This document shows positions 3,977 to 34,054 of a DNA stretch of 37,009 bases, one piece after another (position 1 is the stretch's first letter; the number at the start of each line of letters is the position of its first letter). The notes under the pieces are model-generated. The model saw only the letters and a list, made by a program, of their open reading frames with translations, did no database searches and had not been told where the DNA came from. The translations under genes and the position numbers were made by a program. Source of the DNA: a virus; IMG/VR virus record IMGVR_UViG_3300009103_000084, positions 1-37,009 of that record; one strand, 5' to 3'.

Positions 3977-4794
3977 GACTGCAGCGCATTATTGAACAAT
4001 TGAACTACAGACCATGGTTCATCTCTGCAGAGGGGTATGCTTCAGTTCGAACTGTCATCGAGAAGGCGCTGGACCATCGACCTGATGCAGAAAACTTTAA
4101 CCAGATTGTTGCGGATCTCGTGAATACACGACCTGAGATGACAATCAACGATGATGGGGTTGCAACCATCCACGTTCAGGGAGTCCTTGGACAACACCTT
4201 ACGAATGTAGAAAAGACCTGTGGAAATACAGGGTATGAGCAAGTAATCGAGGAGGCACAAGTCGCAAACGAAAAAGCGGAGGGTGCTGTGTTCGTGATCG
4301 ATTCCCCCGGGGGTATGGCAGTGGGGGCGCAAGAAGCTGCCAGCGCCATTTCCAACATGACTATCCCCACTGCTGCCTTTACAGACTCTTTATCTGCTAG
4401 TGCTGGTTATTACCTTGCTTCTGGTGCTGATTATCTGGTTGCTTCACCTTCTGCCGTGGTAGGTTCTATTGGGACAATTCTTCCTTGGGTGGACTCGTCA
4501 CAACAGTGGGAGCTACAAGGCCTGGAATTTGACCCGATCATCAACGATGGTGCAGATTTGAAAGACAGCATGCATGGTCCAAGCTTAAGCACGGACCAAC
4601 GAGCCTTCTTGCAAGACCACGTAAACGATCTGGCAGCACAATTCCAAGATCACGTTGCCTCTCACCGGGAAGTAGACGAAGAAGTGTGGAGAGCTGGCTT
4701 TTACATTGGAGACCGGGCTGTCGACATGAACCTCGTCGATGATGTGGGATCTTTAGAACTGGCGCACGAGTTTGCTAGTTCTGCACAACGTTGA
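3973..4794 (+). CDS. Prohead protease, S49 (SppA/lambda gpC-like)
   Basis: 273 aa. It matures the prohead by cleaving scaffold and possibly portal. The S49 core is plain: IHVQGVLGQ, VFVIDSPGG (107-114), then SASAGYYLASGADYLVASPSA, in which Ser143 is the likely nucleophile. VVGSIGTI follows, and Lys197 in GADLKDS stands where the S49 catalytic lysine lies. The downstream LSTDQRAFLQDHVNDL...VASHR segment matches the family's C-terminal helix. In lambda the scaffold is nested in the 3' end of this gene; here the protease ends first and the scaffold is separate. Confidence 0.92.
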   Translation: MRLQRIIEQLNYRPWFISAEGYASVRTVIEKALDHRPDAENFNQIVADLVNTRPEMTINDDGVATIHVQGVLGQHLTNVEKTCGNTGYEQVIEEAQVANEKAEGAVFVIDSPGGMAVGAQEAASAISNMTIPTAAFTDSLSASAGYYLASGADYLVASPSAVVGSIGTILPWVDSSQQWELQGLEFDPIINDGADLKDSMHGPSLSTDQRAFLQDHVNDLAAQFQDHVASHREVDEEVWRAGFYIGDRAVDMNLVDDVGSLELAHEFASSAQR

Positions 4795-4809
4795 CAGGTA
4801 ACACAGGAA

Positions 4810-5298
4810 GTGAAGGGGCATATTACAACTGTCCCACTCCAACCAAACCGCACAATGTTTACTACTCTTAGTAAGGCGAAAGCTGAAGTCGAACGGATGA
4901 CGGAAGAATCTTCCACTCAAGCGCTTCAAATCAGCTCTCTTACAGAACAAGTTGCATCCCTTACACAGGAACGCGACGAAGCCCGGGAAGCCAGCGAAGT
5001 TTCAAAGCAGGAAATTGCTGAAGCGAAACAGAACCTTGAGCTTGCCGAACAGAATCTCTCCGAAGCCCGGGGCGAACACGAATCCATCGAGGAACGGATC
5101 GAGTCTGAAGCCCAACAGCGTGCTTTGGACATTAGCGCTTCCGCTGGGACTCGTCCCGTTGAAGATTCCACCGATTCCGACCTTGACCCAGACGAAGTTA
5201 CCAAAGACAACTTCTGGCAACGTCACTCCTCGTTAGAGTCCCAAGAAAAACAGGACTTTTACAACAAACACAAGCACGTGATCGGTCGCCACAGGTAG
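4810..5298 (+). CDS. Scaffolding protein (coiled coil)
   Basis: 162 aa. After a short N-terminus it is one long predicted coiled coil (about residues 20-110; LSKAKAEVERM and TQERDEAREASEVSKQ). An acidic DSDLDPDEVT linker and a basic helix-turn-helix-like C-terminus (NFWQRHSSLESQEKQDFY) follow. Coiled coil plus basic capsid-binding tail, sitting between protease and capsid genes, is the classic scaffold layout. The GTG start at 4810 has AGGT 10 bases upstream. An ATG at 4855 would give a protein 15 residues shorter and cannot be excluded. Confidence 0.8.
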   Translation: MKGHITTVPLQPNRTMFTTLSKAKAEVERMTEESSTQALQISSLTEQVASLTQERDEAREASEVSKQEIAEAKQNLELAEQNLSEARGEHESIEERIESEAQQRALDISASAGTRPVEDSTDSDLDPDEVTKDNFWQRHSSLESQEKQDFYNKHKHVIGRHR

Positions 5299-7153: not shown

Positions 7154-7935
7154 TCAAGCTCAAGGTTGTCGATCCGGTCCTGTCTGCGGAATTTCGGAAG
7201 TTTGAACAAGCTTTGAAGCGCTATATTCGTTCCAGTGACGAAGGAGCAGGAAGCATCTTGCGCAAAGAGGCTCGCTTGTTTGCTGTGGACCTCGTCCATA
7301 ATACGCAGCCCTTTGGGAGAAATAAAAATTCTAAAACTAGCGGGGAGCGTGCTGTGGTGCGAGATGTGGCCAAGGTTTACGCCAACTCAGGAAAGGTCTT
7401 TTCTGAAATCGACAAGTCGAGCAAGGAAGCAGCTCGTCACATGTATGGTCTCTTAAAGAATGACAGGCTCCCCGAAGCAGAAGGGTTGTTGCGCAAGGTT
7501 GGAGGTCGTTTTTCAGGTCTGCGAGTCCAAGAGTTTGACAATGGATCAGCACACCGGGCGAAGAGGCGCAACGGAGTGGTCCCCTTTGGCACTCGTGCCT
7601 CTTTGGTGATCCCAGAACCTAAAGACAGGCGAGAATATAGCAACAACGTCGGGAGACGTGTCGGGTGGGCGAAAGCAAGTTGGGCTGCGGACATTCACAA
7701 GTTGGGTGGAACGCGAGGTCTCCCTGCCTGGACTCGCAAAGCTGGTGCTAAAGGTCACATTGAGGATTACACTCGGAGCAGAAAACCGAAAAAAGGAGTC
7801 ACTTTTGTTTCAAGGGTGAACTACATCACCCGGGTTCTGCGTGAATCGAGTGTGCGTCGTGCTCTGAGGTTTCGTGCAAAGTCTATCATGCGGAAGATGG
7901 GGATCATGCATAGGAAGGGGTTAAGCAAGTTATGA
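7150..7935 (+). CDS. Putative minor tail/neck protein (gpZ-like position)
   Basis: 261 aa from ATG 7150, which overlaps the previous stop as ATGA and has GAGGGAG upstream. An upstream in-frame start at 7075 is unlikely because it lies inside the previous gene. It is basic, with helical N-terminal repeats of charged residues (FRKFEQALKRYIRSSDE). A middle part VGRRVGWAKASWAADIHKLGG resembles tail-completion proteins of the gpZ/HK97-gp10 kind, and the end is very basic. The likely role is closing the tail top so that it can join the head; I am only moderately sure. Confidence 0.5.
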   Translation: MIKLKVVDPVLSAEFRKFEQALKRYIRSSDEGAGSILRKEARLFAVDLVHNTQPFGRNKNSKTSGERAVVRDVAKVYANSGKVFSEIDKSSKEAARHMYGLLKNDRLPEAEGLLRKVGGRFSGLRVQEFDNGSAHRAKRRNGVVPFGTRASLVIPEPKDRREYSNNVGRRVGWAKASWAADIHKLGGTRGLPAWTRKAGAKGHIEDYTRSRKPKKGVTFVSRVNYITRVLRESSVRRALRFRAKSIMRKMGIMHRKGLSKL

Positions 7936-10661
7936 GCGAGCGATCACTAAAGATCAAGATTGAGGATGCGTTCCAATCCTATTTGAAGGACCACGTCAAG
8001 AGTGTCCGTGTGTTGCGTGGTCATGATCATGTCGACACCCGGGAAGATGGGCGAACACAGACAGATTTAATTGTTCACGCCCGGGATGCCAGCCCTTTTG
8101 AGGACATGCCCCCGGAGACCGGGTGTCTGACTGTTTCTCTTGCGTGCGAATTGCACCAGCCTGTAGAATTGGCTGAATCTTTAAAGGAAGAGCAGCAGAG
8201 CCAACTGGAAGAAGCAATGTTGCCCATCCATGTGCAAGCCAGCCTGAACCAACAGCCTCCAACTGAGAACGACACCCGGACGGTGGTGGGGCTGCACATC
8301 TATGACATCGACTTAGAGTCAGCCTCTGATGACCGGGATGGGGATTTTATCTTAGAAGTTTTCGAATACAACGTAACCTGTGGACAACACGATGCTCCCG
8401 GCTGGGCTCCCTTTGTTCTCACTGCGCTTGATCCCCTTGACCTTTCTCCGTTTCTCTACTTCAAAGCAGATACGGGGGTTGATGAAGATGGTGGACAAGT
8501 CTTTGACTGGGTAAAGGCTGGGGGGTCTCTTACACCCAATCTAGGCCAGCTGACTGCTGATTATAAGCCAATTCACGACACCTCAGACAACCATATTACC
8601 TTTGATGCATATGATGACAGGTTAGCGTTCGACAGTGCGGTGGAACAGGCGGGAATCCTCATTGTTGCTACCAGTAATGGGATCTTTGCCTATGAAGTGG
8701 ACGCTGATTCTATTGATGAGATCACCGCGCTAGGTCATGAGAAAGGATATTTCCAAGGTATAGACCTCTACGCCTATGCGCTCCTACCAGTGACCGTAAC
8801 CGACCAAGAGATTGAAAGAGTTCTCATCCATCTTGAAGAAAACGGTGCGACCAAGAACCCGACTGGGAGCCTTTTCGAATACTGGCGCATGAGGCAAGAC
8901 CTTGTGGCGCTGAAGTTTGATGGGCTTGATCTCAGCGGGGTTACTAGTCTTCATTCTGCCTTTTATGGTGCCAGATCGCTGACCTCCTTCCCCTACCTAA
9001 ATCTGTCTGGCGTCACAGACCTTACATACACGTTTCGGGACTGTGTCTCTCTAAGTTCGATAAATGCAGATTTGGATGTTTCTAGCGTGACTACGTTTTT
9101 CCAGACATTTGAAGGTGCCACGGGGCTCACTTCCTTCCCCGCTCTAGACCTATCGAGCGGAACTACGTTTTACTATTGCTGGTATGGCTGCACGGCAATG
9201 ACCTCCTTCGCAGCTCTAGACCTATCTAGCGGGACAAATTTCTATAATGCCTGGTATAATTGTACGGGACTCGCCTCCTTTCCAGCCGCGAACCTGTCGA
9301 GCGGGACTAATTTCGGGCAAGCATGGCGCAACACCACGGCAATGACGACCTTTGGTGATTGCACATTCAGTAGCGATCCGAGCGACGACATCGACTTTAC
9401 TGACGCATGGAGGCTCTCAGGCATTACCGATTTCCCCGCACTGGATCTGTCGAGAGGAACCAACTTCCTCCGGTGCTGGGAAGACAACGACGCACTAGAG
9501 ACCTTTGGCGACGTCACGTTCAGCACGACAGCAACTGACGACATCAATTTTCAAGAGGCATTTACGCGGTGGAACAACGTTGCCTCCTTCCCCGCATTGA
9601 ACTTGTCGCGGGGGACCAACTTTACTTATGCATGGAGGGGCAACAAGATGACATCCTTCGGAGCCTGCACATTCAGCACCACCGTGACTGATGACCTCAA
9701 CTTCACCGAAGCTTGGAAGGATGCCAACCAGATGACTACCTTTCCCTCGGTGAACCTAGAGAGGGGGACTACCTTTGAAGCAGCATGGAACAACTGCTCG
9801 GGCTTAACGTCGTTCTTGGCCACAGGGTTAGATTCGGGGGTGAATTTCAAGAACGCATGGAATGGGTGCTCGTCGCTGAGTTCTTTCCCGGCTTTAGACC
9901 TCTCTGCTGGCACCAATTTTTTCGCAGCATGGTATAACTGTTCAGACTTAGCGTCCTTTCTTGCAACAGACCTCTCCTCCGCTCTCGACTGCTACGCTGC
10001 GTTTTATGGGTGCACCTCGCTCACCTCCCTTCCCTCCGGGTTGGCCATATCGAGCGTAACGGATTTCGGATACACGTGGTTCGGGTGCACCTCGCTCACC
10101 TCTTTTCCTGCCATATCGCTAGAGAGTGGAACAAGTTTCACGAACTGTTGGAGAGGTTGCAGCTCCATGACGTCCTTTAACGCAACAGACATAACGGCAG
10201 GAACAAATTTTGCCGCAGCATGGCAGTCAACCGGCCTGACTTCTTTTCCAGCCCTCGATATGTCGAGCGGAGAAACTTTCAGTTCCGCATGGTATGACAG
10301 TGCGTTAACGAGCTTTCCATCTTTAAATGCGACGAAGGGCCAAACCTTCGCGTATGCTTGGGGTGCTTGTACCGCATTAACTACCTTCCCCTCAGGTTTC
10401 TTTGACTATTGGAGTCCAACGAGCGTCGACGGTAGTTGCTTCAATGAAGCTTGGGGAGGGTGCACCTCACTCACGGCAGCATCAGTCGAGAACATCCTGA
10501 ACTCAATCGCAACGGCAGGAGTTGCTGCACCCTCTAGCGGGGTAGACATCACGATAGACTATGATGCGACGACAGGAACTCCCTCGGTTGCGACTGCCGT
10601 GGGGATACTCAAGGGACTCTCTCCCGCATGGACGATCACCCTCAACGGAACACCTCAGTAG
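7932..10661 (+). CDS. Tail terminator-like domain fused to a BspA-type leucine-rich repeat protein
   Basis: 909 aa, the longest gene here. Residues 1-160 (KIKIEDAFQSYLKD, TDLIVHARDASPFEDMPPETG, GDFILEVFEYNVTC) look like a small tail terminator domain of gpU type. Residues about 165-325 form a separate, probably beta-rich domain (WAPFVLTALDPLDLSPFLYF). From about 330 to 850 there are about twenty repeats of roughly 23 residues with the pattern SFPALDLSSGTNFxxAWxxC, typical of DUF285/BspA leucine-rich repeats. Some units carry an insert (TFSTTATDDINF). A last compact domain (SIATAGVAAPSSGVDITIDY) ends the protein. It overlaps its upstream neighbour by ATGA. The repeats are likely exposed and bind a host surface. 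Confidence 0.7.
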   Translation: MSERSLKIKIEDAFQSYLKDHVKSVRVLRGHDHVDTREDGRTQTDLIVHARDASPFEDMPPETGCLTVSLACELHQPVELAESLKEEQQSQLEEAMLPIHVQASLNQQPPTENDTRTVVGLHIYDIDLESASDDRDGDFILEVFEYNVTCGQHDAPGWAPFVLTALDPLDLSPFLYFKADTGVDEDGGQVFDWVKAGGSLTPNLGQLTADYKPIHDTSDNHITFDAYDDRLAFDSAVEQAGILIVATSNGIFAYEVDADSIDEITALGHEKGYFQGIDLYAYALLPVTVTDQEIERVLIHLEENGATKNPTGSLFEYWRMRQDLVALKFDGLDLSGVTSLHSAFYGARSLTSFPYLNLSGVTDLTYTFRDCVSLSSINADLDVSSVTTFFQTFEGATGLTSFPALDLSSGTTFYYCWYGCTAMTSFAALDLSSGTNFYNAWYNCTGLASFPAANLSSGTNFGQAWRNTTAMTTFGDCTFSSDPSDDIDFTDAWRLSGITDFPALDLSRGTNFLRCWEDNDALETFGDVTFSTTATDDINFQEAFTRWNNVASFPALNLSRGTNFTYAWRGNKMTSFGACTFSTTVTDDLNFTEAWKDANQMTTFPSVNLERGTTFEAAWNNCSGLTSFLATGLDSGVNFKNAWNGCSSLSSFPALDLSAGTNFFAAWYNCSDLASFLATDLSSALDCYAAFYGCTSLTSLPSGLAISSVTDFGYTWFGCTSLTSFPAISLESGTSFTNCWRGCSSMTSFNATDITAGTNFAAAWQSTGLTSFPALDMSSGETFSSAWYDSALTSFPSLNATKGQTFAYAWGACTALTTFPSGFFDYWSPTSVDGSCFNEAWGGCTSLTAASVENILNSIATAGVAAPSSGVDITIDYDATTGTPSVATAVGILKGLSPAWTITLNGTPQ
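8919..10490 (+). repeat. DNA stretch encoding about twenty degenerate LRR units
   Basis: Units of about 69 bp recur in frame. Some neighbouring units are nearly identical at DNA level; for example GGGTGCACCTCGCTCACCTC occurs at about 10008 and again at about 10085, and a variant occurs near 10457. Such runs can expand or contract by recombination. CCCGGG, frequent elsewhere in the genome, is absent from this stretch by eye. Confidence 0.75.
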
Positions 10662-19564: not shown

Positions 19565-20179
19565 CTAGACGAATCTCGTAGGAAACTGGTTGAACAATGT
19601 CCCCAATGGGCTTACGTTGAGGATGATCCGTGTGGTCAACGTGCGATCTCCACCAGTGGGGTGACTGACCTTTAAGGTGGACTTGCTCCATGGGCTAACT
19701 CCGGTGTATTCGGCAGTAGCATTGGAAAAGTCCCAATCTGCTGCTTCCTTACCGAATCCGCTGTCATGGGTGACGAGCTTATTCACCATCTTGCTCACGT
19801 AAGTCGCGATCAGGTTTCTTACGTTCTCAGTAACCCATTCAAGCTTTTTGGTTTTCAGAGCTTCTCCGGTCAACATCTGGAAGATGGTGGTTCTGTTGTT
19901 GATGCTGTAACCGCTGCCGCTTTCCCAATCGATGAACTTGCGGGACTCTTGGCGGAGGCTGACCGCTTGTTTGTAGTCGGCGCGGCTTTGACGTCCGTTC
20001 GGGTAGGGGAATGCTTGCTCGTAGATCCCATCTACCTCGTCCATTTTCCGCTCGATCATCTCGTAGGTGTTATCCCAGAGTTCCGAGAAACGCTCGGTAA
20101 TCTTGTCGGTGTAAGGCTTGAGTGCCTCGGTGATGATGTCGTTCAATGTTTTCACTGTGTTGGTGTTTGTCTTAGCCAT
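19565..20179 (-). CDS. Early monocistronic protein of unknown function
   Basis: 204 aa, not recognised. The N-terminus is Thr/Asn-rich (MAKTNTNTVKTLND), then helical and charged (YEMIERKMDEVDGIYEQAF). A beta-like C-terminus contains Trp and Ser/Thr (VSPWSKSTLKVSHPTGGDR). It has its own strong sigma70-type promoter with an upstream inverted repeat and ends at the bidirectional terminator, so it forms its own transcript. The first 19 bases of the gene match those of the gene at 33319. Single-gene early transcription suggests an abundant early factor, perhaps host takeover or DNA binding; this is inference. Confidence 0.75.
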   Translation of the reverse strand: MAKTNTNTVKTLNDIITEALKPYTDKITERFSELWDNTYEMIERKMDEVDGIYEQAFPYPNGRQSRADYKQAVSLRQESRKFIDWESGSGYSINNRTTIFQMLTGEALKTKKLEWVTENVRNLIATYVSKMVNKLVTHDSGFGKEAADWDFSNATAEYTGVSPWSKSTLKVSHPTGGDRTLTTRIILNVSPLGTLFNQFPTRFV

Positions 20180-20185
20180 GTGTAT

Positions 20186-20214
20186 ATTTTACCAGAGGGA
20201 GGGGGTTCTGTCAA
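20186..20214 (-). promoter_or_regulatory. Sigma70-type promoter, predicted leaderless
   Basis: On the minus strand the order is TTGACA (20214-20209), a 17-bp spacer, TAAAAT (20191-20186), six bases (ATACAC), then ATG at 20179. The expected start of transcription, about seven bases after the -10, coincides with the A of ATG, so the mRNA should have no 5' leader. Confidence 0.8.
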
Positions 20215-20224
20215 TTATACAGTT

Positions 20225-20244
20225 TATCACACGGTTATATGATT
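20225..20244 (-). promoter_or_regulatory. Operator-like inverted repeat (imperfect)
   Basis: TATCACA (20225-20231), 6 bases, then TATGATT (20238-20244) match the arms of the perfect operator at 33640-33659, with two mismatches in one arm. It lies 10 bases upstream of the -35, the same distance as in the other copy. Likely a regulator binding site. Confidence 0.55.
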
Positions 20245-20248
20245 TTCT

Positions 20249-21397
20249 CTAGGATAGCTCCAATACCGGGAGAAACCGGGTTCCGGCCTTCTTGACCCTC
20301 CCTTTTTCGAGTAGGACCCCCTTTGCCTCGTAGAAATCCCGGCCAGCTCGCCCCAACTTCTGGATCACGACCGTGCGCCAAGCGTCAGCGGTCAAGCCTC
20401 CTTCCGGGAGAACAGCCAAGACTTCTTCCGGGGTGAAGGGAGCCTGACGGGGTGTGTCTTTTCGATCTGGTTTCGCACCCGGGATGAACAAGTCACGTGG
20501 GTCCTTTCCTTCGTCGATTCGCATAAGGGGGAATTCCCACGTCACCACGAAGTCAGGCAGATGCGGCAAGTAGCGCAGATCACTGGCAACGACGAAGCTC
20601 CCCCGCTCCGTGTGTCGTGTCATGGTCAGGATTGCGTCTGGATCACGTGCAAACACACCAGATCCGGAGATTCTATCGATTGCTTCCTTGCTTGCTTGGT
20701 TTCCCTTCGAAAAATGAGCACCGAAAACGACCGCAGCTCCTATCGCTTCGCTCAGATCCTCGACCTTCTGCATAAGCTGTGCCATGTCGCCAGCACTGTT
20801 CTCGTCTAAATCGCCCAGTGCCTTGTAAATCGGGTCGATGATGAGCAGGTCGATTTGACCGCTTGCCATCACCCGGGCGCGGAGCACGTCTGCCAGCAGA
20901 GACAAGTCGTAGCATAAACCACGCAGGTTCCAGAACAGAAAATTCTTAGGAAGTCCTGCCCCTTTCGCCTTTGCCACGGTGGACAGCCTGTCTTCGAAAA
21001 ATCCAGGGATGAGTTCAAAGTTCACATACAACACGCGACCAGAGCGACACCCACACCCCCACCAGTCGCTGCCAGTTGCGACCGATAGCCCAAGGTCGAT
21101 CAAACTCCACGATTTGTAGGCTTTCGAACCCCCAGCCAACACCATCTTGCTTCCCCGGTGCAAAATCCCATCGACCAGCAGACCCGGGAGCTTTATTGAA
21201 CCGGGGCGAATCTGATCGGCCCCTTTGAACTCAGGAAGACCCTTGGGAGCTTCTCCTTTGCCTTCCCTTGCGCTTGGGCCTATTGGGGAATGTGGAGAGG
21301 ACGGGACGATATGTGAGGCCAAGGGAGGCGAAGGGGGAGGCAGCTCGTGGGCATGTTGTTCGACATAGCGCCTGAATGCATCCTTCACCGTGACCAT
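20249..21397 (-). CDS. RepA-like replicative helicase/AAA ATPase
   Basis: 382 aa from ATG 21397, overlapping the primase end by 13 bases. A disordered Pro-rich N-terminus (about 18-60) precedes a RecA-type core: Walker A AGGSKAYKS (88-96), VLYVNFEL, Walker B DLLIIDP (183-189), GAHFSKGN with a sensor His (228) and ISGSGVFARDPD. This is the RepA/DnaB-like ATPase group common next to phage AEP primases. C-terminal FTPEEVLAVLPEGGLTADAW looks like a winged helix. It should unwind the replication fork, or help load the fork helicase, together with the upstream primase. Confidence 0.85.
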   Translation of the reverse strand: MVTVKDAFRRYVEQHAHELPPPSPPLASHIVPSSPHSPIGPSAREGKGEAPKGLPEFKGADQIRPGSIKLPGLLVDGILHRGSKMVLAGGSKAYKSWSLIDLGLSVATGSDWWGCGCRSGRVLYVNFELIPGFFEDRLSTVAKAKGAGLPKNFLFWNLRGLCYDLSLLADVLRARVMASGQIDLLIIDPIYKALGDLDENSAGDMAQLMQKVEDLSEAIGAAVVFGAHFSKGNQASKEAIDRISGSGVFARDPDAILTMTRHTERGSFVVASDLRYLPHLPDFVVTWEFPLMRIDEGKDPRDLFIPGAKPDRKDTPRQAPFTPEEVLAVLPEGGLTADAWRTVVIQKLGRAGRDFYEAKGVLLEKGRVKKAGTRFLPVLELS

Positions 21398-26520: not shown

Positions 26521-27267
26521 CTAAAATGGGTCTTCCTCTGTCTCTTCCTCCGCTGGTGGAGCTGCTGCAATCCGGGCTTTCAGGTCTGCCTCAGACAGGA
26601 CCTCCTGCCCCTTGAAGTAGAACCCGTCCGAAGTGGGGTGGGCTTCCCACCCGTGAGGAGGGAAAGAGGAAGCCACGGGAGAGGCCGGAACCCCTCCCGG
26701 GACGCTTGGGACCTTGGGAACCGTCAAAGGCTCTCCGGAGCCAACGGAAGGCGCAGGAGAGGGTGACGAAGGCGCGAACCCCTCCTTCCCGGCTGCAGCC
26801 TCGGCCAGCAACCCGGCAAACTGTCCCCGGTCCGGGAGGGAGCTTGCCATGTTGCCCGGGAGAGGAAACACCCCGGTGATTTTCGCGTAGATGATCGGGG
26901 TCATCCCCTTAGATTGCACATTGTCCACGCTCAGGAGTGCCCCGGTCCCTTCCAGTTCGCAGTAATCCCACCCATATTCGGGGGCGCGACCCAGCCAAGC
27001 CGTGAGGAACTTCACGAGATTGCTGCCGGAGGCACCAGAAATGGAAAACTCATAGGTTTGCACCAGATATGGGGTCCCTGCTTCATCCAAGATTCCAAAA
27101 AGGAACCTCGTCACGTCTTTAGTCTCCATCTCTTCGCTTTGGAACTTCCGACGTTGAACGCCGAAAAGGTCCTCCACTGAGAGACAGACTGCAGTGTATT
27201 GCCCAACGGGGCAAACGGTTTTGATATCGAACCCGCTGCGGGGTTCCGGTTTGCTAATAATAGCCAT
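26521..27267 (-). CDS. ssb: Single-stranded DNA-binding protein
   Basis: 248 aa. The first 145 residues form a beta-rich, OB-like domain (VGQYTAVCLSVEDLFGVQRR, TPYLVQTYEFSISGASGSNL). A Pro/Ser-rich flexible linker follows, and the protein ends in an acidic tip, EEETEEDPF, like the DPF-type C-terminal tails with which SSBs recruit partner proteins. Position between dUTPase and recombination genes agrees. The leader is A/C-rich without Shine-Dalgarno. OB-fold assignment is by pattern; the tail is the strongest sign. Confidence 0.7.
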   Translation of the reverse strand: MAIISKPEPRSGFDIKTVCPVGQYTAVCLSVEDLFGVQRRKFQSEEMETKDVTRFLFGILDEAGTPYLVQTYEFSISGASGSNLVKFLTAWLGRAPEYGWDYCELEGTGALLSVDNVQSKGMTPIIYAKITGVFPLPGNMASSLPDRGQFAGLLAEAAAGKEGFAPSSPSPAPSVGSGEPLTVPKVPSVPGGVPASPVASSFPPHGWEAHPTSDGFYFKGQEVLSEADLKARIAAAPPAEEETEEDPF

Positions 27268-27273
27268 GGTTTG

Positions 27274-27795
27274 TCAGTCTTGTTGTTCTGGCTGGTTGTC
27301 ATGTTTAAGACCAGAAGAACCCCAGCCAGCAGGACCCCTCCCGTCAGTGTCAAGATGCTCTTCCTCATGGAAAGCAACGTGAATTTGTGGATAGAAAATA
27401 AGTTGTGCGACTCGGTCTCCAATGTTCACTTCGAATTCAGTGTCTGATACGTTATGCAACATGGCGAAAATTTCGCCTGTGTAGGTTGCGTCGATGATGC
27501 TGGGCAGAACCACCACTTCACGCAACAGCAAGGAACTGCGTGATTCTAAGCGGTAGAAATAGCCCAGTGGACATTCGATGTGCAGACCCGTCCGGACCTT
27601 GCACACCTCCCCCGGTGGGATAACCAAATCCTCTGCTGCCTGGATATCATACCCTGCATCACTTTCCCGTTTGCGCCATGGGGGACAAGTGACTAGCTTG
27701 GGGTTGGAACACATCCGCACGTCGATATTGCGCTTGATCCGCGCAGCTATGCTACGTTTCTGCAAGTCCCGTGCCTGTTTTCTTGTCAGTCCCAT
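27274..27795 (-). CDS. dut: dUTPase
   Basis: 173 aa from ATG 27795. All five trimeric dUTPase motifs are seen: DAGYDIQA, ESRSSL, PSIIDATYTGEI, GDRVAQLIF and the Gly-rich end RGPAGWGSSG. It hydrolyses dUTP to dUMP, keeping uracil out of DNA and feeding dTMP synthesis. It starts two bases after the purZ stop. In a genome where A is replaced, T still pairs with Z, so dUTP control remains needed. Confidence 0.95.
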   Translation of the reverse strand: MGLTRKQARDLQKRSIAARIKRNIDVRMCSNPKLVTCPPWRKRESDAGYDIQAAEDLVIPPGEVCKVRTGLHIECPLGYFYRLESRSSLLLREVVVLPSIIDATYTGEIFAMLHNVSDTEFEVNIGDRVAQLIFYPQIHVAFHEEEHLDTDGRGPAGWGSSGLKHDNQPEQQD

Positions 27796-27797
27796 GA

Positions 27798-29063
27798 TCA
27801 CAAGGTGAGGAGGTGTTGGGGGAGAGGTCCGGTCGACGTGTGAGAAACTTTTACCCCGCACTCGGTTTCAACCCGTTTAATACTTTTCAGCGCTGCCTCG
27901 TGCAAATCAGATGTGTGATTCCACAGATCCGGGTGCCAGTAGTTTAAAAAGGTGAGCACGATTTGCGTTGGGTCGTTCCAGATGATCGATTCTTGCACGG
28001 TTTCCACATTCCACATCCCGATCCTGCGTGGTTTCTTGGTCACTGTCGTTTTTTCGATGGTGCTTAACCCCTCCTGTTCCTCCGGACTCAAACGCTTGAA
28101 GGCTTGGGCATGCACTTCTGAGATCGCAACCCGGTAACGGTGGCGCAAGTGATCTTCCCATCCTTCAGGACGGTATGGGTCCACGAGTTCATCGGGTAGG
28201 TCCATTTCCTGCGCGATTTCTGTGCAAAGTTTATCCCATTTGTAAAGGGCAGGGATGTCGAGCAGACCACGTCGCTTGTCGTTGAACTCGTGACAGAGTG
28301 CAAACCACGAGACTTCCCCCGGGAGAGGACCCGATGTCCCAGCAACCCGAATCGGCATGGTGCGACAAACCAGCGTCGTCTCGACTCTGCAGGAAGGGGG
28401 AATCCCAGCTTCTGCAAGCCATAGCGCACTGTTGCAACCACGATTTGAAACGAACGGGTAGGGGCCAAGGTAGAAATCCAAGTGTGATCCCTGCGTGCCT
28501 TCTAGCACGATGTCCCCTCCTTTGTGGTAGATGTCCCGCAACATCCGGGGAACATCCACCAGTTGCAAATCCCAAGATAAGGGGTGGTATTGAAATTTCA
28601 GGTCCTTGGAGGACTCAGGCTTTCCCCGGGTGCGCAACTTCTGAATGAGAGCCTCACTACTCCCCTTCCCGGTCGCACCCATGGCGTGGTGACGGTTTGC
28701 GTCTTTTGCTGCCTTCTCTGCGTCTCCGGTGTGCAAGCAACAGCGGTGGTCGATAAAAAGCCTGTCCCGAACATCTTCCCCAGTTGCGGCTGAGATTGTC
28801 GCGATTTCTCGTTCGAGAATTTCGGGGTGAATGTAAGCACCCGGTCCAATAAAGAGAGGCATCCCGGGGTGAACCCATGCCGTGGGAATCGTCTGCATGG
28901 CATAGGGCATGCCCCGATAATAGACAGTGTGGCCAGCGTTTATTGAGCCTGTGCGAACTGTAGCATCAGCGTGTTCTGCCATTGCTGCAGTGATTGCACC
29001 TTTCCCTTCTGACCCATACTGTCCACCTTGTATGATGTGTATTCGTCCTTTTCCTTTTTTCAT
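27798..29063 (-). CDS. purZ: PurZ: N6-succino-2-amino-2'-deoxyadenylate synthase
   Basis: 421 aa of the adenylosuccinate synthetase family. Motifs are IQGGQYGSEGKG (11-22), NAGH (42-45), GATGKG (129-134), LEGTQGSHLDF (187-197) and TTVTKKPRRIG (339-349). Ser18 stands where PurA has its catalytic Asp (GDEGKG); this exchange defines PurZ, which joins Asp to dGMP instead of IMP. His45 is kept. The PurA guanine-binding TKxD segment is replaced by TFLN (371-374), which suggests ATP as phosphate donor. It is long for a phage PurZ. ATGA overlap with purB couples the two steps. Confidence 0.92.
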   Translation of the reverse strand: MKKGKGRIHIIQGGQYGSEGKGAITAAMAEHADATVRTGSINAGHTVYYRGMPYAMQTIPTAWVHPGMPLFIGPGAYIHPEILEREIATISAATGEDVRDRLFIDHRCCLHTGDAEKAAKDANRHHAMGATGKGSSEALIQKLRTRGKPESSKDLKFQYHPLSWDLQLVDVPRMLRDIYHKGGDIVLEGTQGSHLDFYLGPYPFVSNRGCNSALWLAEAGIPPSCRVETTLVCRTMPIRVAGTSGPLPGEVSWFALCHEFNDKRRGLLDIPALYKWDKLCTEIAQEMDLPDELVDPYRPEGWEDHLRHRYRVAISEVHAQAFKRLSPEEQEGLSTIEKTTVTKKPRRIGMWNVETVQESIIWNDPTQIVLTFLNYWHPDLWNHTSDLHEAALKSIKRVETECGVKVSHTSTGPLPQHLLTL

Positions 29064-30223
29064 GTCTTATAAACGTGTGCCCGGTGTTCTCCACTGAGAA
29101 TCCGGTGCGTTTTTTCTTCTCTCCCCTCCTTTGCCAGTTCTGGTTCAGATTGAGGAGTGAAAGCTAGGTCGCTTCCCATCATGGTCAGCAGCAATTTTTC
29201 AAAAAGTTCAGTCGTGCGCTTCATGCAGTTTTTCACCTGCCAGCTCGTGTCTAGCGTTCTTTCACAACCGTTGTGTGCCATAACATCTAGCATCTCCCGG
29301 TGAGCGGGGAAAATAGCGCGAGCAATTGAACACGCTTTCTCCCACTTGATGGGGTTGTTCTTGTGTGGGATGGATGATGACCCCACGTAACCCTTCGGGT
29401 GGATAGATGCCATATCTCCCTGCGAGCACAGAAAACGCCAGTCTGCCGCAATCTTGTGTATTTGGGCCGAAGCACGACAAATCCAAGCAATCGCATTTTC
29501 CTCGTCCACGTGGTCACTGCTCTGCAGGGGGCGCAAATTCCACGGACGACCTAAGCTAAACGTGAACCACGGGAAGTGCTCAACCTGCATTTGAATGACC
29601 GACCCTGGATTCCACTGCTTGTAAGGTTTCAAGTGTTGCATGAGTGCAACCAGATCCGAAAAATCTCCGACAGGACCACCCATTAGAAGACCAGAAAGTG
29701 AGTTTTTCTCCATTTCGGATGGGAACGAATAGATGTTCATAGCCTCCAGTGGCGAGATCCACGCACGCACCCGGTGTGAGATCTTCATTCGACCCGCATA
29801 CTGCCAATGTGTGTAGGCGTTGGTGCTGCGTTGTCCCTTGTCGCCTTTGCTAAAATCCATCAGCTGATCAGTGAAGGAACGCAGCAAAACACGACAACGA
29901 CGCATCGCATGGTTGAGCTGGACCCGTCGCACGTTGTCTTCAACGTTGCTGCTCGTCAAACCAAAGTGAGCATTCACCAGCCCGGTCGATTCAACGAACT
30001 TTCGCAGTCTGGTGACAACACGATGGTGACTGTTGCTAAGTGGGAACTGGAACGATTCTTTTTTCAAGGCGTCAGCCCACCCACATTCCTGAGCGAGAAA
30101 GTGCAGGTGGGCTTCCCACCATGAGAAAGACAATGATTCCTCAACCTCAGGAGTCCATATGGCTTCCATGGGGTCGTCTTGGGGTTCATAATAAAAAAGA
30201 ATGTGGTGTCGTCTAGGTGTCAT
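29060..30223 (-). CDS. purB: Adenylosuccinate lyase (PurB) encoded by the phage
   Basis: 387 aa from ATG 30223, overlapping the nucleotidase end by 11 bases. Fumarase/ASL superfamily motifs are VNAHFGLTSSNVEDN (83-97), YTHWQYAGRM (137-146, His139) and the signature GSSSIPHKNNP (281-291). MAHNGCERTLDTSWQ follows. The active-site set looks complete. It would release fumarate from dSMP to give dZMP, the step after PurZ. The protein is shorter than bacterial PurB (about 430-456 aa), mainly at the N-terminus. In described Z pathways the host supplies this step. Confidence 0.9.
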   Translation of the reverse strand: MTPRRHHILFYYEPQDDPMEAIWTPEVEESLSFSWWEAHLHFLAQECGWADALKKESFQFPLSNSHHRVVTRLRKFVESTGLVNAHFGLTSSNVEDNVRRVQLNHAMRRCRVLLRSFTDQLMDFSKGDKGQRSTNAYTHWQYAGRMKISHRVRAWISPLEAMNIYSFPSEMEKNSLSGLLMGGPVGDFSDLVALMQHLKPYKQWNPGSVIQMQVEHFPWFTFSLGRPWNLRPLQSSDHVDEENAIAWICRASAQIHKIAADWRFLCSQGDMASIHPKGYVGSSSIPHKNNPIKWEKACSIARAIFPAHREMLDVMAHNGCERTLDTSWQVKNCMKRTTELFEKLLLTMMGSDLAFTPQSEPELAKEGREEKTHRILSGEHRAHVYKT

Positions 30224-30767
30224 TGTTGATGATGTGGTTGTGCAGCCAAGTCTCCAAGTTTTCGGCTGCGTCGTCTGTCTGTTGGTGGAGATGGTTGCAA
30301 AATGAAGGGAAGAGATAGCCTTTGCCTCCTGCCTCTTTCCAATGATGAATTTGACTAAGGTTGTCGTCAATCAGCAAGCGACCGGGCATGGAGAGAATCC
30401 ATTTTTCCCGGAGTCCGACGACAGTCTGTTCTGGCAACTGCCACTCTTCGCTGCGCATATCCATCCACGCCTGTTTTTCCGCAAGGCAGGTTGGACTTGT
30501 GCCATGAGCCGTCAGAATCACCACCTTGTAATCATATGCCCAACTTACAGCAAGCACAGTGCGCAAGACTCTTTCTGCTTCTGGCAAGACTGGGAGCCGA
30601 TACCAGAACCCGGGTGATTCCAACAACCGCATCATCATTGACCAAGACAAGCCCAATTTCTTTTCATAGTTGTGACCCCCGGGGTCTGCTGGAACACTAA
30701 ACTTGTCTTGTGCCACAGTCATAAAATCCGCAAGCACTCCGTCCATGTCTAGTGCGATCAACTTCAC
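30213..30767 (-). CDS. HAD-family 5'(3')-deoxyribonucleotidase
   Basis: 184 aa from GTG 30767, which overlaps the upstream stop as GTGA. HAD motifs are ALDMDGVLADF (5-15; D7 nucleophile, D9 acid), VVILTAHGTS (motif II Thr), and RLLIDDNLSQIHHWKEAGG (motif IV). The layout is that of NT5C-type nucleotidases. In this operon it could dephosphorylate a competing deoxynucleotide such as dAMP, doing part of the job that DatZ (an HD enzyme, absent here) does in other Z phages. That substrate is an inference. Confidence 0.85.
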   Translation of the reverse strand: MKLIALDMDGVLADFMTVAQDKFSVPADPGGHNYEKKLGLSWSMMMRLLESPGFWYRLPVLPEAERVLRTVLAVSWAYDYKVVILTAHGTSPTCLAEKQAWMDMRSEEWQLPEQTVVGLREKWILSMPGRLLIDDNLSQIHHWKEAGGKGYLFPSFCNHLHQQTDDAAENLETWLHNHIINNDT

Positions 30768-31138
30768 TTGTTGAGAGAACCTTTCCCAAGATGCCCGGTT
30801 TCGCGCAAATGTTCAACCAAACCGATAAGGGCATAGTTTGCTAGGTCTCGCCAACTGTCTTCCACCGATTCGTGGTGAACCTTTTCGTGGTCCATCCGTC
30901 CATAAAGAGTGCTCAACCTGCTGATCTTGTCAAAACTACGAACCAGAACACCATAACTACCGAAAGCGTCGAGGTTGCCTCGCCCATAGTCGCGTTGTTT
31001 GGTGTCGATAATTTCGAGATTTTCAACCGCTTCCCGTGCGCACTCTTCGCCCAGTTGCGTCTTTGGGCTGAGAGAAAGAAGAAGGACCCCTTTTTCGTTA
31101 CGTGGGTGAATTTGCCACAGTTCGTCTTGCTCGCTCAT
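30764..31138 (-). CDS. MazG-like nucleotide pyrophosphohydrolase (DUF1599/Nmad1 type, MazZ role)
   Basis: 124 aa from ATG 31138. All-helical; motifs are LGEECAREAVENLEIID (29-45), RDYGRGNLDAFGSYGVLVR (49-67), FDKISRLSTL (69-78) and HESVEDSWRDLANYAL (89-104). The K-I-x-R-L and ExxxDxxxDLANYA blocks are typical of the phage DUF1599 (nucleotide modification associated) family, related to MazG-type all-alpha NTP-PPases. Its first place in the purB-purZ operon suggests it makes dGMP from dGTP, as MazZ does. Longer upstream frames cross hairpins and were rejected. Confidence 0.7.
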   Translation of the reverse strand: MSEQDELWQIHPRNEKGVLLLSLSPKTQLGEECAREAVENLEIIDTKQRDYGRGNLDAFGSYGVLVRSFDKISRLSTLYGRMDHEKVHHESVEDSWRDLANYALIGLVEHLRETGHLGKGSLNK

Positions 31139-33318: not shown

Positions 33319-33594
33319 TTATTCCCAGCCTCCGAAACCGTCGTCTTTAAGTCCGACGATTTCAGCACCCTCGTTGGTCAATTCGACGAAGTAGCAGGTG
33401 CCAGCTCCACCATCGGTGTCTTCCCGGGACTCAACGAGACCCTTTTTGATGAGAGAACCGAGGACTGCCGCTTCGCTGTGGCTTCCGTCGCCGATCTCGT
33501 GGAGCCAACCGCTGCCGGGGCAATCCATCCCTTCTGCGATAATGTTGAGAAGGGCGGTTTCTTTTTCTGTCAGTGTGGTGTTTGTCTTAGCCAT
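33319..33594 (-). CDS. Winged-helix regulator candidate
   Basis: 91 aa. The pattern LTEKETALLNIIAEG, SEAAVLGSLIKKGLVESRED and CYFVELTNEGAEIVGL is that of a single winged helix-turn-helix with its wing, as in small MarR-like or PadR-like proteins. It has its own sigma70-type promoter with a perfect inverted repeat just upstream, so it may regulate itself and the sister promoter at 20.2 kb. Its first 19 bases equal those of the gene at 19565. Confidence 0.75.
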   Translation of the reverse strand: MAKTNTTLTEKETALLNIIAEGMDCPGSGWLHEIGDGSHSEAAVLGSLIKKGLVESREDTDGGAGTCYFVELTNEGAEIVGLKDDGFGGWE

Positions 33595-33600
33595 GTGTAC

Positions 33601-33629
33601 ATTTTATCACGATTACCCCATTTTGTCAA
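33601..33629 (-). promoter_or_regulatory. Sigma70-type promoter, predicted leaderless (sister of 20186)
   Basis: On the minus strand TTGACA (33629-33624), 17-bp spacer, TAAAAT (33606-33601), GTACAC, then ATG at 33594. The predicted +1 falls on the A of ATG. From the -10 through codon 6 it matches the promoter at 20186 in all but one base. Confidence 0.82.
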
Positions 33630-33639
33630 TTATGGGATT

Positions 33640-33659
33640 TATCACACGTTTATGTGATA
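33640..33659 (-). promoter_or_regulatory. Perfect operator: TATCACA-N6-TGTGATA
   Basis: Seven-base arms at 33640-33646 and 33653-33659 with a 6-base spacer, 10 bases upstream of the -35. The stop codon of the gene at 33650 lies inside it. The position suits an activator, or a repressor acting from upstream. Confidence 0.65.
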
Positions 33660-34054
33660 CTGGCAAGACCCGTCTGACGCTGCCAAGCAGCATGTTCCTC
33701 TTGGATCAGGAGAACCGTCACCCGTTCGTCCGGGGTTCCTTCCTTCCACGTGAGGACCCCCAGATATTTCCCCCGGCCAAGAACGATCGGACGTTGGTGG
33801 GGGCGCTTTTCCGGGTCCACTCCCATCTCGTCCAAGAAGGCCGAAATTGAAGGGGAAGGCAGACGCAAACGCCACTGCCTCTGCTCTTTAATAAGGGGAC
33901 TGAGCATCCAGGCCCGAAACCACTGTTTCGGATGGGTGACTGTCCAGTCCATTTGGTCAGCGCTTTTCATGGTGGTGTCTGGTTCTGCTCTTCTTCGACG
34001 CAAGGCCAACAGGAGAACAAGGGGGACTAGGATGATGAATAGGATTTCTGTCAT
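33650..34054 (-). CDS. Small early membrane-anchored protein
   Basis: 134 aa. A hydrophobic N-terminus (ILFIILVPLVLLLALRRRR, about 4-22) with a basic stop-transfer is a single membrane anchor. The rest is a soluble domain with Trp and Pro (VTHPKQWFRAWMLSPLIKE, RPIVLGRGKYLGVLTWKEG). Not recognised. A membrane-bound early protein could act against superinfection or on host processes. The leader is A/C-rich, nearly the same as that of the gene ending at 34094. Confidence 0.65.
   Translation of the reverse strand: MTEILFIILVPLVLLLALRRRRAEPDTTMKSADQMDWTVTHPKQWFRAWMLSPLIKEQRQWRLRLPSPSISAFLDEMGVDPEKRPHQRPIVLGRGKYLGVLTWKEGTPDERVTVLLIQEEHAAWQRQTGLASIT

Follow-up and report, generated by a model that had tools for sequence, protein, structure and literature searches.

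A virus operon coupling a PurB-like lyase to a PurZ-like synthetase, a probable source of 2-aminoadenine nucleotides

The window analyzed here is the complete IMG/VR record IMGVR_UViG_3300009103_000084 (37,009 bases), which carries on its minus strand an operon encoding, in this order, a MazG-like/NMAD1 domain protein, a HAD-superfamily nucleotidase, a PurB-like adenylosuccinate lyase, a PurZ-like synthetase and a dUTPase-family protein (Dut). The record also encodes a terminase of the GpA type and a portal protein of the lambda type, which marks it as viral and speaks against a purine operon from a bacterium. An earlier examination of the DNA (the sequence-only reading) had described four coupled genes, those for the MazG-like, HAD, PurB and PurZ proteins, with overlaps of 4, 11 and 4 bases; their coordinates and common strand were confirmed, but the extent of the operon was not, since the open reading frame (ORF) of a fifth gene, dut, which starts at 27795, 2 bp past the purZ stop, had been missed. 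The features of the operon are as follows.

30764..31138, minus strand: MazG-like/NMAD1 (DUF1599) domain protein, 124 amino acids (aa), predicted to act as a dNTP pyrophosphohydrolase on dGTP and/or dATP, giving dNMP; PF07659, phrog_1485
30213..30767, minus strand: HAD-superfamily NT5C-type 5'(3')-deoxyribonucleotidase, 184 aa, GTG start, which may remove dAMP; PF06941 (25.4 bits), phrog_2643 (E 3.5e-21)
29060..30223, minus strand: PurB-like adenylosuccinate lyase, 387 aa, predicted to convert dSMP to dZMP and fumarate; TIGR00928 (E 2e-16), catalytic residues, model
30020..30022, minus strand: PurB Arg68, at the position of Staphylococcus aureus PurB Asp69, beside the ribose and phosphate of the nucleotide; comparison of PurBs
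29351..29383, minus strand: PurB signature loop GSSSIPHKNNP, residues 281-291, holding the base Ser282 (Escherichia coli Ser295); alignment
27798..29063, minus strand: PurZ-like synthetase, 421 aa, predicted to convert dGMP and aspartate to dSMP; Ser18, homology, tree, model
28056..28304, minus strand: insert of about 76 extra residues in the synthetase (residues 254-336), predicted to be helical, immediately ahead of the TTVTK loop that binds aspartate; common to 7 contigs
27274..27795, minus strand: dUTPase-family protein (Dut/DutZ-like), 173 aa; PF00692 (E 1e-26)

The synthetase matches the Pfam family Adenylsucc_synt (E 2e-41) and contains the NAGH, EGTQG, PIRVA and TTVTK-RR blocks. The GSEGKG motif noticed in the sequence-only reading, along with the PurB signature loop, is present as GGQYGSEGKG at residues 13-22, where Ser18 occupies the position of the catalytic aspartate of PurA (Asp13); serine is found at this site in 147 of 147 phage PurZ proteins, and aspartate in 99% of PurA (PMC12884076). 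We built a tree from the PurA sequences of archaea, of E. coli and of phages with the Asp-type protein, together with PurZ, PurZ0 and the group of the window synthetase, leaving out columns filled in less than 60% of the rows, the insert among them. The Ser-type sequences form a single clade apart from the Asp-type archaeal PurA (support of 100 in the Shimodaira-Hasegawa-like approximate likelihood ratio test, SH-aLRT). The window synthetase belongs to a seven-member group (SH-aLRT 100) located outside the PurZ clade (SH-aLRT 98), and all PurZ0 references fall in a clade (38 rows, SH-aLRT 100) that excludes this group, which, judged from the tree, is a third lineage beside PurZ and PurZ0. The insert of the group follows a conserved Trp, precedes the aspartate loop and takes the form of additional helices in the model of the window synthetase (predicted local distance difference test, pLDDT, 88 overall; predicted template modeling score, pTM, 0.90), which was closest to the structures of Pyrococcus horikoshii PurA (5k7x), PurZ0 (7vf6) and S-2L PurZ (7odx).

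The PurB-like protein, compared with E. coli and other bacterial PurBs, keeps H67, T90/S91, H139, Q234, S282, K288, N290 and E295, including the equivalents of E. coli H91 (H67), the acid H171 (H139) and the base S295 (S282). Its model (pLDDT 78.6, pTM 0.81) found only adenylosuccinate lyases among the best PDB matches in a Foldseek search (E about 1e-10, query TM-score, TMq, 0.7-0.77). Against TIGR00928 it scores 59.7 bits, under the curated cut-off of 326, which the PurB of phage Ghobes likewise fails (151.7 bits) and that of phage Galactica passes (341 bits). One replacement sets the protein apart. In S. aureus PurB, the amide of Asp69 binds the ribose O3' and its side chain orients the phosphate-binding Arg310 (PMC2917274); the position is Asp or Glu in all 55 cellular and all 25 purA-linked phage PurBs compared, and Arg in just three of the 28 PurBs of phages with 2-aminoadenine (Z) loci, namely those of the window and of L099 and L024 (L-numbers denote contigs or loci of other viruses compared with the window), which group together at SH-aLRT 96. 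A general Z-PurB signature was sought by column comparison and discarded, as no column was valid in all Z-phage PurBs and only the Asp69 to Arg change of the window clade stood out. It is possible that this change tunes the window PurB to dSMP, that is, alters its substrate preference.

What the sequence-only reading took for a MazG-like NTP pyrophosphohydrolase is closest to NMAD1/DUF1599, with a PF07659 match of 21.9 bits (below the 25-bit cut-off of that family) and a phrog_1485 match; no homology to S-2L MazZ was found, and a phmmer search against the PDB gave no match. NMAD1-related domains also lie beside PurZ-Dut in L026, L029, L030, L037, L047 and L049, and in L024 such a domain is fused to dUTPase directly ahead of PurB-PurZ. 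A single ORF in L026 (9051-9953), directly after Dut, consists of NMAD1 (DUF1599) followed by a nucleoside 2-deoxyribosyltransferase-like domain (both Pfam matches sub-threshold), which suggests an NMAD1-DmtZ-like fusion. The fusions with Dut and with the deoxyribosyltransferase tie the first operon gene to nucleotide-pool enzymes. The HAD nucleotidase proposed earlier was borne out and narrowed to the NT5C/5'(3')-deoxyribonucleotidase type, with a homolog in L099 at 4495-5127. Dut follows PurZ in most related loci, and the window protein grouped weakly with Z-phage Duts (SH-aLRT 86, in a tree that held six non-Z sequences only); the Dut of PurZ0 phages hydrolyzes dATP and dGTP (PMC12884076).

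The association of purB with purZ is widespread. In a set of 50,697 phage records, the only clear phages with an annotated PurB were Gordonia phages (Ghobes, Frizzle, Sapo, Archimedes) and Streptomyces phages (Hiyaa, Galactica, Keanu, Spocter), and purZ is present in all eight of these isolates; records matching PurZ in the two phage groups number 6 and 5, the same as for PurB, and both genes were found in the loci read directly (L001, L002, L015-L017). By letter comparison, the sequence of the PurZ0 structure 7vf6 matches an Archimedes protein, so that a characterized PurZ0 phage itself carries purB (gp38). Unannotated Listeria, Enterococcus and fecal records with PurB were left out of the count, and the purB of Microcystis phage MaAM05 (L018, MW495066.1) was dropped because its neighbors mtaB and glgX are bacterial and the record looks like bacterial DNA. 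Scans of IMG/VR with the single window PurZ or PurB protein gave no matches, and alignment queries were needed; these yielded 475 contigs encoding PurZ relatives, of which the best 80 were examined. All 80 have Ser at the catalytic site (78 by automatic motif; L022 and L024 read GSESKG), and purB lies within 400 bases of purZ in 17 of them and elsewhere in the stretch examined in three more. With both scans combined, purB occurs in 31 of the 86 dereplicated Ser-type loci, a frequency biased by the PurB seeding of one scan (13 of 61 in the PurZ-seeded scan alone). The 19 adjacent cases comprise 11 with purZ ahead of purB (Z->B), three with the reverse order (B->Z: the window, L099 and L024) and five on opposite strands. 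The PurBs of the Z->B group are under purifying selection (dN/dS, the ratio of nonsynonymous to synonymous substitution rates, 0.04-0.18). The uniqueness of the window arrangement therefore fails, and the database search for purZ with adjacent purB that the sequence-only reading had proposed found so many cases that its novelty falls. A tally of purB changes on the PurZ tree gave 8 gains or losses and was not relied upon, the rows having been chosen partly for purB; L083, scored as lacking purB, has one in the same contig (L171) at a distance of about 11 kb. A separate system is formed by Asp-type purA beside purB, found in 29 virus loci; in many virus contigs, including L101, L109, L117, L128, L134 and L140, Asp-type purA is directly followed by purB, the canonical adenine auxiliary pair.

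Taken together, these observations make it probable that the operon encodes a viral Z nucleotide pathway leading from dGTP to dZMP, up to the kinases. The argument rests on the serine at the Asp13 position with the NAGH and TTVTK-RR motifs, the Ser-type clade and the model matches; on sister loci of the same insert clade that carry known Z genes, with PF18909 dATP/dGTP diphosphohydrolase and YfbR/HD (DatZ-like) genes in L022 and L023 and Dut in L023, L024 and L099; and on the recurrence of purB with Ser-type purZ in several arrangements, with related PurBs under purifying selection. The kept catalytic residues and the exclusively adenylosuccinate lyase fold matches argue for a phage-encoded lyase step, as the sequence-only reading had it, and both this step and a function in Z-nucleotide synthesis gain support from sequence, tree, model, synteny and recurrence. 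In the proposed route, the NMAD1/MazG-like protein and/or Dut would cleave dGTP (and dATP) to dGMP (and dAMP), the Ser-type PurZ-like synthetase would join dGMP and aspartate into dSMP, the phage PurB would split dSMP into dZMP and fumarate, and host kinases would raise dZMP to dZTP; Dut, NMAD1 and HAD would remove dATP and dAMP, with the HAD nucleotidase possibly clearing dAMP, letting Z replace A. The order of the genes, their homologies, the key residues, the predicted folds, the recurrence and the selection acting on related PurBs were directly observed; from these we infer every substrate of this route as well as Z in the virion DNA.

Arguably, the same route could operate with a PurB that is a general adenylosuccinate lyase topping up the host activity and not adapted to dSMP. 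We consider this variant a real possibility although we lean against it: the catalytic residues of PurB are standard, non-specific host enzymes were found sufficient (PMC8342488), and purB is missing from the stretch examined in most Ser-type purZ loci, but Z-phage PurBs have diverged from cellular ones, the window clade has a charge reversal at Asp69, and purifying selection is strong in one Z->B group.

Several results weigh against a Z pathway with a working phage PurB. The assignment of the synthetase to PurZ in the sequence-only reading holds for the Ser motif and the Ser-type clade but not for the curated family: the protein, a member of a third lineage, scores 177.5 bits against NF038379 (PurZ; cut-off 300), whereas the controls Ghobes, Archimedes, S-2L, VP5 and SH-Ab 15497 all pass with 325-422 bits, and it scores slightly higher, 206 bits, against the archaeal PurA model NF003295 (still below the 368 cut-off). 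It is therefore labeled PurZ-like; it should work like PurZ, yet the curated model does not admit it to the family. Its best score being for PurA, and Asp-type purA lying next to purB in other viruses, the operon might be a canonical purA-purB pair serving to boost AMP synthesis in the infected host, the virus DNA containing ordinary adenine; this is very unlikely given that the catalytic Asp is Ser, that Asp-type phage PurAs and the PurBs paired with them belong to different clades, and that the Dut/NMAD1/HAD neighbors agree with Z loci. The window PurB is divergent (17-29% identity to the other PurBs compared), its grouping with those of L099 and L024 rests on long branches, and the PurB homolog beside purZ in L024 (8958-9998) has a decayed signature loop, STALVQKPRPNP, with His and Lys retained, so it may be inactive or repurposed. 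That decay, and the shortness of the window protein, which misses much of the C-terminal part, would suit a relic PurB or one that has taken on a role other than that of a lyase; we give this little credence, as all catalytic residues are intact in the window and in L099 and the window gene retains the overlaps with its neighbors. Finally, profile comparisons found none of DatZ, MazZ, DmtZ and DpoZ in the window. DpoZ identity of the window polymerase was rejected (13 bits against NF038380, DpoZ-1 and DpoZ-2 profile scores near zero); the polymerases of the window and of L099 are unlike both DpoZ-1 and DpoZ-2, and the likeness is that of family A only. Without a DpoZ of known type or a DatZ, the operon products could be precursors of another modified purine, short of full Z substitution, which nevertheless seems highly improbable: DatZ-like genes occur in the sister loci, and the PrimPol with which S-2L makes its Z genome does not distinguish A from Z (PMC8065100).

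Compared with known systems, the window shares with the eight PurZ0 isolates with purB a Ser-type synthetase, a PurB-like lyase, the Dut family and a family A polymerase, but in these phages purB is 4-7 kb from purZ, the synthetase has no insert, and DpoZ-1 is present, as is DmtZ (known in Ghobes). PurZ0-type purZ-purB-dmtZ/dutZ loci in IMG/VR (such as L056, L059, L063, L067, L076, L081, L082) resemble the window in that purB adjoins purZ close to Dut and differ in the Z->B order, the DpoZ-1 type polymerase and a PurB canonical at Asp69. The Z cluster of cyanophage S-2L (PurZ-MazZ-DatZ) likewise has a synthetase and a dGTP pyrophosphohydrolase (predicted in the window), but no purB, and its MazZ and DatZ were not found in the window. 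Asp-type phage purA-purB pairs (such as L101, L109 and L134) are neighboring genes of the same two superfamilies, but with Asp13 kept, in different clades, and with no Dut or NMAD1 found.

The accessible literature up to 2026 gives the conversion of dSMP to dZMP to host enzymes, and we found no description in it of a phage PurB in Z synthesis. What is new is the third PurZ-like lineage and the coupled NMAD1-HAD-PurB-PurZ-Dut operon; such genes had already been annotated by depositors, and the arrangement is recurrent. A recurrent, selected phage PurB would mean that part of the Z-phages encode the dSMP to dZMP step themselves, would suggest a reason why certain phages may not depend on the PurB of the host, and would make these loci a source of sets of enzymes with which other cells could make Z-DNA. 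A stronger proposal, of a third aminoadenine-phage lineage with an insert-bearing PurZ, its own family A polymerase, an NMAD1 pyrophosphohydrolase and a PurB specialized for dSMP by the Asp69 to Arg change, so that dGTP to dZMP is wholly viral, we regard as unlikely on balance; the question of how many times Z genomes arose would be affected by a third PurZ lineage that has a polymerase of its own.

Downstream of dut, the window contains a replication module that has an AAA_25 gene beyond the polymerase gene and includes the following genes.

26521..27267, minus strand: single-strand-binding (SSB)/NGO0469-type replication protein; NF046043 (47.9 bits, below cut-off); syntenic in L099
25195..26376, minus strand: PD-(D/E)XK exonuclease; phrog_298 (E 3e-15); syntenic in L099
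24507..25040, minus strand: RuvC-like resolvase; PF02075 (E 1e-9); syntenic in L099
22486..24573, minus strand: family A DNA polymerase; PF00476 (E 9e-13), phrog_17; L099 ortholog at 464 bits

L099 (IMGVR_UViG_3300045738_001556) repeats the window order HAD ... PurB-PurZ-Dut-SSB-like-PDDEXK-RuvC-PolA-x-AAA_25, with identities of 28-29% for PurB and 42% for PurZ, and this recurrence makes the gene order more than chance. It also shares the PurZ insert and the Arg at PurB position 69, and differs in having HAD further upstream and in that NMAD1 was not seen in the stretch examined. The family A polymerases of the purZ contigs L022 (12828-15455) and L023 (11172-13973) have at the N terminus a domain of the uracil-DNA-glycosylase superfamily (PF03167); this fusion is unusual and might be relevant to uracil handling in Z-DNA.

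Elsewhere in the window, two minus-strand genes 13 kb apart (20150-20300 and 33565-33720) have similar leaders containing a palindrome (in one copy TATCACATAAACGTGTGATA) and start with identical codons (MAKTNT), likely a repeated promoter or operator. The closest isolate for the terminase (407-2182) is Verrucomicrobia phage P8625, at 26% identity. In the structural region, a 909-aa protein (7932-10661) with many sub-threshold DUF285/BspA-like leucine-rich repeats is likely a host-binding tail protein.

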